A DNA stretch of 44,779 nucleotides from Nitrososphaeraceae archaeon. GTDB lineage: Archaea; Thermoproteota; Nitrososphaeria; Nitrososphaerales; Nitrososphaeraceae. Both the position numbers and the translations under genes were made by a program. The DNA lies in the NCBI GenBank assembly GCA_022545895.1, contig JAKEIK010000009.1, positions 1-44,779 of the forward strand. Reading direction: 5' to 3'. This document shows positions 5,527 to 15,841 of this stretch, one piece after another (within the stretch, counting starts at the first letter, position 1; every line of letters starts with the position of its first letter). The notes below the pieces were generated by a model. That model had not been told where the DNA came from. It did no database searches and worked only from the letters and a program-made list of their open reading frames with translations.

Positions 5527-6417
5527 TTATATAATACATTGTTTTCGTATGCCCTTGACTAGATTCCTGATGGTGACCTCAGTTACACCGCCCGCTTCTG
5601 CAAATATTAGCTGAGTTCTATATTCTCCTAAGGCTAAACATGACAGATAAAGCACCGTTGCTGCAAGTCCCATTGGATTTTTGCCATTAGATTCTCTGCT
5701 TTCAGTAACAATAGACATTAGATCCATGGCGTGGCGTCGAGTCTTCTCACTTATCCCTATCTTATTCGCTACCCGATTAATACAATTCATTGGATCTACT
5801 AACGGTATTTTCAAATCAAGGCCCAATACAAGGATCCCGTAATTTTTTCTAAGCTCTCTATGAGTGACATTTATTACTTTAGCAACGTCTTTCATAGTGC
5901 GGGGGTTTCCAGTTTCTCTGCATGCTATATATACTGCTGCACCCAATACTCCAGAAATCGTTCTACCCCTTACCAATTTTTTTTCATGCGCCTTCCTATA
6001 GATATAAGCAACCTTTTCAACAACGCTATCTGATAATCCAAGTTTGTACTTCAACCTATCAAGCTGGTTAAAAGCCTCTTTGAGATTTCTAGTTGATGCA
6101 TCTATTTGGGTCCTGCTATCCAATGTTCTTAATCTGCGCACTGATGGATAGAGATAGTTATCCATTTCGTGACCACCAGCTTCTTTGCCATTTCCTATAA
6201 CAGTGTATAGTCCTTTATCATGACGCGCAAGCGAAAAGGGAGTTCCTGTCCGTTGGCGATTAGTATTTTCACTAGAATTGAAATTTCGCCATTCAGGTCC
6301 TGTTTGTTCCGTTCTGTCCACCGTGACTATGCCGCATGTGCTGCAAAAGACCTCCCCACACTCTAAATCTGATATTAAAGGACTATTGCAGATTGGACAC
6401 AATAATGAGTTTTCCAT
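5527..6417 (-). CDS. tfb: transcription initiation factor IIB (TFB)
   Basis: N-terminal zinc ribbon CPICNSPLISDLECGEVFCSTCG, B-finger-like region, two cyclin-like repeats. Confidence 0.95.
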   Translation of the reverse strand: MENSLLCPICNSPLISDLECGEVFCSTCGIVTVDRTEQTGPEWRNFNSSENTNRQRTGTPFSLARHDKGLYTVIGNGKEAGGHEMDNYLYPSVRRLRTLDSRTQIDASTRNLKEAFNQLDRLKYKLGLSDSVVEKVAYIYRKAHEKKLVRGRTISGVLGAAVYIACRETGNPRTMKDVAKVINVTHRELRKNYGILVLGLDLKIPLVDPMNCINRVANKIGISEKTRRHAMDLMSIVTESRESNGKNPMGLAATVLYLSCLALGEYRTQLIFAEAGGVTEVTIRNLVKGIRKQCII

Positions 6418-14591: not shown

Positions 14592-15116
14592 TCAAGTCCT
14601 AATCTGAACCTTTACAGACGAATCGGTTAGCTCGAATGAGCCCTCGATATTCAATGTATTTTTTAAAGCTGATTTAAGATAACCATGAAAAAATTGAGAA
14701 CCTTTTCTACCTAGTCTATGTCTAATTACAATGATTTTTAGATCATTCTGATTTACCTCGTCATAAGTTCCCAAATACCCGTATCTGCAGATTATTTTTT
14801 CTATATAGTCTACCACAGTTTCTTGTGTTAGTGTTTTTTTCCAGAAAAGAATTGTATCACGAGGTATGACTTCGCCCAAAGAGATGCCAAGTCCATAAAT
14901 ATCTTCTTCTGTATAACAGTCTAGGAGTGAATTCAAAAGTTCGCGATTTATGATTACCAAATCAATTTTTGATAGAAATCTAGTAAATTCAGCATAACGC
15001 TTCAATATCATATTCACCAAACCGTTTACTGAAACACCCATCCTTTCCGCCTCTTCATCCAGTATTTTGGAGAGGTCGTTATCTACTCTAAAGGAGCGTG
15101 TTGTGGAAGGTGGCAT
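14592..15116 (-). CDS. ribbon-helix-helix DNA-binding regulator with C-terminal extension
   Basis: TTRSFRVDNDLSKILDEEAERMGVSVNGLVNMILKRY is RHH-like. Confidence 0.75.
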   Translation of the reverse strand: MPPSTTRSFRVDNDLSKILDEEAERMGVSVNGLVNMILKRYAEFTRFLSKIDLVIINRELLNSLLDCYTEEDIYGLGISLGEVIPRDTILFWKKTLTQETVVDYIEKIICRYGYLGTYDEVNQNDLKIIVIRHRLGRKGSQFFHGYLKSALKNTLNIEGSFELTDSSVKVQIRT

Positions 15117-15143
15117 ATCTTAACTTAGTATACATGAACATAA

Positions 15144-15178
15144 ATGTGTTTTTTTGTGACCATTTGTGTTATATTGTG
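15144..15178. promoter_or_regulatory. four TGTG cores at exact 10-bp phase; putative RHH operator
   Basis: TGTG at 15145, 15155, 15165, 15175 (CACA on the gene strand), 29-62 nt upstream of the RHH ATG. Confidence 0.6.
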
Positions 15179-15387
15179 TTGCTGGTGGTAATTTTAACAT
15201 TGATCATTAAATTATTCCCTTATAGTGTTCTTGCAAGAGCATATTGGTAAATAAGTTCTCTAAAAAAAGAACGACCAAATCTGAAATTATCACAGAATGT
15301 TGTGGGTTAGGATAGTGTGTGATGGTGCTGACTCGAAAAGTGGTAAAAATTGGCAGTAATTTTTGTTGGATCGGTCAAACTACAATC

Positions 15388-15395
15388 TATATAAA
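15388..15395 (+). promoter_or_regulatory. putative TATA box TATATAAA for the response regulator
   Basis: TATATAAA about 45 nt upstream of the start codon at 15440. Confidence 0.5.
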
Positions 15396-15439
15396 GCACA
15401 TTAAAATAATATGGAGCTCTGACGAATAATGGATTCAGT

Positions 15440-15841
15440 ATGACTAGCAGACAGAATAAAAAACCTCTGAAGGTCATGATTATCGAAGATGAGCAAGATA
15501 TATTATTACTCTATAAAGATTATCTAATCAGTAGGGGGCATAATGTTTTAGTTACTGCTACCTCGGCATTGGAAATTATTTCCGATTATGAAAAGATCCT
15601 TCCGGATATAACCATACTTGACTACAAATTACCTGATAACAGAAATGGCATTGAAGCGGCAATTAAGATTTTAACCACGTATCCATCAGCTGCGATTCTA
15701 ATTGTTACAGCATATGATACAGTGAAAGAAGAAGTATTGAAACAATCAATTTTCGAAGGGAAAAGATTTGCCATCCTATTCAAACCCATAAAATTAGCTA
15801 GATTGGAGAACGCAATTTACGATTTACTAGAGTCAAAATAA
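15440..15841 (+). CDS. response regulator receiver-domain protein (stand-alone)
   Basis: KVMIIEDEQDILLLYKDYL, TILDYKLPD, and Lys near FKPI; no output domain. Confidence 0.93.
   Translation: MTSRQNKKPLKVMIIEDEQDILLLYKDYLISRGHNVLVTATSALEIISDYEKILPDITILDYKLPDNRNGIEAAIKILTTYPSAAILIVTAYDTVKEEVLKQSIFEGKRFAILFKPIKLARLENAIYDLLESK

Follow-up and report, generated by a model that had tools for sequence, protein, structure and literature searches.

Four CACA boxes, set exactly 10 bp apart, form an array (15145–15178, minus strand) upstream of the gene for a 174-aa RHH regulator in the window, as we call the whole 44,779-nt stretch of DNA analysed here, which comes from a soil ammonia-oxidizing archaeon of the Nitrososphaeraceae. 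Single occurrence in the genome and conservation among relatives mark the array out as an operator-like element, and comparison of the loci indicates that it is very probably a protein-binding site controlling the RHH gene and, in most relatives, a neighboring TFB gene. The original prediction, an autoregulatory site for the RHH protein, was probably right in kind and incomplete in its account of the site, since in most relatives the element sits between the RHH gene and a divergently transcribed TFB gene. A more fitting description is that of an operator serving a divergent RHH-TFB unit, one arm of which survives in the window.

Read on the minus strand from 15178 to 15139, the site is CACAATATAA CACAAATGGT CACAAAAAAA CACATTTATG, with CACA cores starting at 15178, 15168, 15158 and 15148 and the fourth core ending at 15145. 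The minus-strand sequence thus bears out the four CACA cores at 10-bp intervals that had been noted; the gap between the last core and the RHH start codon (ATG at 15116), previously put at about 29 nt, is 28 nt by our count. Adjoining the last repeat is a TATA-like sequence, TTTATG (15139–15144, minus strand), a putative promoter element. By the usual spacing of archaeal promoters, TTTATG would be the TATA box of a nearly leaderless mRNA, with transcription expected to begin at the ATG or immediately ahead of it; the BRE would then be covered by any protein bound to the last box.

Four YACA words in exact 10-bp phase are found once in the 2,565,190-base assembly, at the window site, while the reversed control pattern has no match in the same 2.57 Mb, and at other periods from 6 to 24 no run of YACA in the window exceeds three units. 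Three-unit arrays are not rare, with a few chance matches per genome, so the weight of the case rests on the fourth unit and above all on conservation across genera at the same promoter. Chance or low-complexity repetition might be suspected in an AT-rich region, for a word as simple as CACA and for a pattern whose three-unit form turns up a few times per genome, but the four-unit array is unique in 2.57 Mb and recurs at orthologous promoters far above the level in shuffled sequence; this explanation has a negligible probability and is refuted by the conservation found.

Orthologues of the RHH protein are 76–98% identical throughout the genus and 52–68% identical over much of the family Nitrososphaeraceae, from which we assembled 51 non-identical orthologue upstream regions. 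At least three (C/T)(A/G)CA boxes in exact 10-bp phase occur in 35 of the 51, loci that are related and therefore do not amount to 51 independent events; dinucleotide shuffles of the same regions gave a mean of 0.15 and a maximum of 2 regions with an array. None of the 51 has three or more phased boxes at periods 7–9 or 11–14, and one has them at period 15. The pattern of at least three boxes is present in five gene-bearing genera, examples being GTAACACACATGGTTACAAAACAACACATTTAAG (g1), ATTACAAATGGTTACAAATAGTTACAGTTTTAAG (g2), CAACACAAATAGCTACAAATCACCACACTATTTATT (g7), AACACATAAGAACACAACATAACACAATTATA (g11) and GTTGCAGTGTACTGCAAGTTGCTACATAACACTTTATTATAACA (g12), and TATA-like boxes (TTTAAG, TTTTAAG, TTATA or TTTATT) follow straight after the array in g1, g2, g7 and g11. 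The prediction had looked to conservation of the 10-bp phase in orthologous promoters; this phase is found in several genera, beside the TATA box, so the operator reading does not founder on a lack of conserved repeats. The outermost (fourth) box is TGCA, not CACA, in the same-genus relatives L004, L006, L007 and L009. With a weight matrix built from g2, g7 and g11 only, leaving the window genus out, the window site scored 24.6 bits and the next unrelated site 11.8; the second-best match (13.8) was the window site itself, shifted one repeat out of register.

Conservation is concentrated in the boxes. A 40-bp alignment of 28 loci has six invariant columns, all inside boxes, and with weighting by lineage a box column carries 1.46 bits of information, a spacer column 0.51. 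This bears on a structural explanation, in which phased CA steps and A-tracts would bend the DNA or position chromatin proteins without any sequence-specific regulator. The exact 10-bp phase and A-rich spacers such as CACAAAAAAA would suit such a signal, but it is the boxes that are invariant and the spacers that are poorly conserved, the g12 arrays keep the phase with TGCA boxes and GC-richer spacers, and the element stands at one promoter per genome rather than recurring; we regard a purely structural role as very unlikely.

The array profile R1 was searched in 37 genomes, with the best 150 candidates per genome scored, such that weak sites may escape, and with loci used for building R1 matching it by construction. 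In all 11 same-genus genomes with a full-length orthologue, the top match was the RHH promoter (E 4e-8 to 1e-4), the next match among the best 150 candidates having an E of 0.005 or weaker. Weaker matches (E 0.004–0.02) checked in G006, G013, G015, G028, G030 and G032 were intragenic or at loci that lack RHH and TFB genes alike. A genome-wide regulon sharing the same array was rejected, since almost all genomes have no comparable second R1 site, G071 (below) being the exception. In G011 there are two array matches, one upstream of each of two gene copies; this bin carries both a TFB-less (G011:C24) and a TFB-paired (G011:C161) version of the locus (L002, L061), reflecting either duplication or strain mixture. 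We likewise rejected an array common to RHH paralogues, as the paralogues examined (at most 36% identity) have neither the array nor a TFB neighbor. Several of the paralogue promoters carry a GTTTACA-like motif; a ACGTTTACA / ACGTATACA-like motif is common to those of L112, L113, L114, L116 and L125 and may be what a different branch of the family recognizes. Conservation among orthologues, the top matches within the genus and absence at the paralogues examined together define a conserved, locus-specific operator-like element.

The RHH gene (14592–15116, minus strand) was identified as an open reading frame with sub-threshold Pfam similarity, supported by profile comparison and an AlphaFold2 model. 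Pfam RHH_1 and HicB match several family members and fall below cut-off for the window protein. The predicted DNA-binding region (about residues 5–51; 14964–15104, minus strand) has the features expected of the MetJ/Arc/CopG class of RHH proteins, a TRSFRVD strand followed by helices at residues 13–26 and 30–51; the RHH strand forms in the dimer, and in the monomer model (mean pLDDT 92) the N-terminal strand is invisible. The family profile compared against the PDB has AvtR as its best credible match (E 0.006), followed more weakly by MazE7, CopG and NikA; the top-ranked match is the repeat protein k-cTRP5, whose single stretches are not significant. A single-sequence search found no PDB homologue, and a viral structure library gave no significant match. 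The invariant residues are R10, L19, F91, H133 and S140, with no cysteine among them.

The C-terminal part of the protein (about residues 52–174; 14595–14963, minus strand) is modeled as an alpha/beta domain with a predicted V4R / TRAPP-Bet3 / H-NOX-like fold. In Foldseek comparison with the PDB, Bet3, TPC6 and YslB gave the best values (E 8.2e-5 at best, TM at most 0.46), sGC was weaker (E 0.016), and several designed proteins scored like the Bet3/TPC6 chains; Pfam V4R had no match in the RHH protein. Bet3 and the prokaryotic V4R domain are homologues (PMC2253512), and this homology, joined to the Foldseek likeness, makes a V4R-like sensor likely; the evidence is moderate and the ligand-sensing role putative. 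Type II antitoxins (HicB, RelB, BrnA) matched weakly, below threshold and over the RHH part only, and neither conserved neighbor, TFB or receiver, is named as a toxin in the annotation. Orthologues have the TFB or receiver gene on one side and a phosphatase, isochorismatase-like or other gene on the opposite side. In the window, a dual-specificity/tyrosine phosphatase gene (PF22784, PF00782; 13895–14446, minus strand) follows the RHH gene, and it recurs with another gene near the RHH gene of L079.

In most orthologue loci the divergent gene encodes a TFB and starts about 125 bp away; the partner in L003, for example, matches PF00382 (TFIIB repeats, E 1e-30) and PF08271 (Zn ribbon, E 3.8e-7). 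A near-palindromic TGTWTACA box closely precedes the TATA-like box of this TFB gene. The distance from the TGTWTACA box to the last repeat of the array is 40, 48–51 or 58–60 bp in all loci where both were found, and by hand count 20 bp in L148 and 49 bp in L145, where the box is degenerate; none of these spacings is more than two bases off a multiple of 10, so the box keeps nearly the same helical face despite its variable distance. The RHH-paired TFB of G012 is encoded at G012:C1:838044-838889, and matching the order and spacing of the six TFBs of G012 to the locus numbers of N. franklandianus suggests that it is NFRAN_0924.

The gene order within the genus is RHH in one direction, and TFB followed by a CheY-like receiver in the other. 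The window and G011:C24 are missing the TFB, so that the receiver gene (15440–15841, plus strand, in the window), separated from the RHH gene by the TFB gene elsewhere in the genus, is directly beside it. The window intergenic region (15117–15439) is without the TFB gene and the TGTWTACA box of same-genus relatives: the box was not found there, and a TFB remnant was looked for in the gap and rejected, none being found. The window assembly (G000, 94% complete) has no orthologue of this TFB, its best TFB being 38% identical, as against 81% or more for the orthologues in sister genomes. The window does encode another TFB paralogue, at 5527–6417 (minus strand), which shares 38% identity with the RHH-paired TFB. 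G036 retains its TFB only as a pseudogene interrupted by five stops, beside which the RHH gene and the array remain. The array can thus outlive its TFB, having been kept where the TFB was lost (window, G011:C24) or decayed (G036).

Some loci break the pairing of RHH gene and array. G071 has two TFB copies (L148, L149) with intact-looking arrays, no RHH gene beside either, and no orthologue found in the assembly; in L148 the TFB box doubles as the first array unit. G016 has one TFB with a phased array, GATTACAAATGAATACAAATGGTTGCA, again with no RHH gene beside it and no RHH orthologue found in the genome. These arrays are either read by another protein or relics of recent RHH loss. On their account, the part of the original prediction that made the site autoregulatory needs qualification: the conserved, locus-specific element stands, and a purely autoregulatory role does not explain these arrays. 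Conversely, g3 keeps the RHH gene without the TFB and without the array, and g5, which has the TFB, and L029 have no array. Taken together, these cases indicate that the array tracks the divergent region as a whole and not a single gene. In g9 (L142, L143, L144), a distant RHH homologue (24–29% identity) is also divergent from a TFB; a simple word search found no 10-bp array in these intergenic regions, which have TTGT/ACAA-type inverted motifs in its place. The RHH-TFB pairing may therefore predate the 10-bp array operator.

The arrays of G071 (two copies) and G016, beside TFB genes and without an RHH gene, are a reason to consider that the array serves chiefly to control the divergent TFB, bound by some other factor (a paralogous RHH protein or TFB itself), with the window copy simply inherited from a shared promoter. 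Related proteins may read similar half-sites, as the GTTTACA-like motifs at some paralogue promoters hint. But the window and G011:C24, which have lost the TFB, and G036, where it has decayed, retain a perfect four-unit array, and in most lineages the array adjoins the TATA box of the RHH gene; the g3 loci, with RHH and without TFB, have lost the array, so that neither gene explains every case. We think this arrangement unlikely.

We favor, as the probable reading, a conserved tandem operator on which RHH dimers would sit side by side, repressing their own gene, controlling the TFB where it is present and responding to a ligand. RHH dimers, most probably the product of the adjacent gene, would bind cooperatively to the (C/T)(A/G)CA boxes, all on the same side of the helix. 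Because the innermost box adjoins the TATA box and overlaps the position of the BRE, a filled array should block TBP and TFB, giving negative autoregulation of the RHH gene. Ancestrally, a single operator spanning the divergent promoters would, along with the TGTWTACA box on nearly the same helical face, have controlled the TFB gene as well; the window lineage then lost this gene and kept the RHH-side array alone. A small molecule on the C-terminal V4R/Bet3-like domain would probably modulate DNA binding. A more specific version, which we put forward tentatively and hold to be somewhat short of an even chance, is a divergent switch made up of a ligand-sensing RHH protein and an alternative TFB, with dimers stacked over both promoters setting the TFB level; the window would then have lost the TFB arm and kept an autoregulated sensor.

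That the proposed effect is repression rather than activation we infer from position only. Archaeal genes can be activated from upstream sites that adjoin the BRE, and the TFB-side box does lie upstream of the TATA box of the TFB gene, so that the RHH protein on the array might instead recruit TBP or TFB and activate its own gene, the TFB gene or both. The last repeat, however, adjoins the TATA box and leaves no room for a BRE free of bound protein, and the archaeal RHH proteins studied in most depth act as repressors (PMC5569661); activation therefore seems a distinctly improbable alternative to the repression that we favor.

Archaea use several TFBs as alternative initiation factors. The element described here is a concrete, conserved candidate circuit for one TFB in globally important soil nitrifiers, and its boxes, phase and position make it a clean operator for the reading of tandem repeats by an RHH protein beside an archaeal core promoter. 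If the divergent switch is real, it would resemble the circuits that control sigma factors in bacteria. A literature search of limited scope found no earlier description of the RHH-TFB pairing.

Among known systems, the viral regulators SvtR and AvtR share the RHH fold with the window protein, AvtR being the best credible profile match noted above. SvtR acts as a repressor at its own promoter, apparently in competition with the recruitment of TBP/TFB, and for RHH proteins a polymerisation along the DNA toward the BRE and TATA box has been proposed (PMC5569661). Their consensus sites are imperfect inverted repeats, in contrast to the 10-bp direct repeats here, and unlike SvtR and AvtR the window-type gene is chromosomal, has an extra C-terminal domain and is paired with a TFB in relatives. 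The ParR/parC system likewise has direct repeats of about 10 bp in tandem at an RHH gene promoter: one ParR dimer binds each parC iteron, the solved complex has 10-bp repeats, and the repeats, situated beside or across the promoter, repress it (PMC5016525). Unlike that system, the locus here is chromosomal, has three to four repeats and not long arrays, and has no actin-like ParM gene among the annotated neighbors; its C-terminal part is a folded domain, as against the ParM-binding tail of ParR.

By analogy, MsvR of methanogens is a close functional parallel. This V4R regulator has boxes at its own promoter, an operator that in one species is shared with a divergent gene and that in another, where the partner is absent, serves self-control only (PMC3729527). 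Like the RHH protein, MsvR joins an N-terminal DNA-binding domain to a C-terminal V4R domain (V4R-like and predicted here); the DNA-binding domain is a helix-turn-helix in MsvR and an RHH here, the three conserved V4R cysteines for redox sensing contrast with the absence of an invariant cysteine here, and the partner is an F420H2 oxidase rather than a TFB. Ammonia-oxidizing archaea have multiple TFBs, and the TFB that diverges from the RHH gene in relatives belongs to such a set of paralogues. In biofilms of these archaea alternative TFBs change expression, and a 2025 study found TFB genes, NFRAN_0924 among them, induced in biofilms of cultured species (PMC12448741). The main text of that study names no RHH regulator or operator; the loci compared here go beyond it in offering a conserved candidate regulator, together with its operator, for one TFB.
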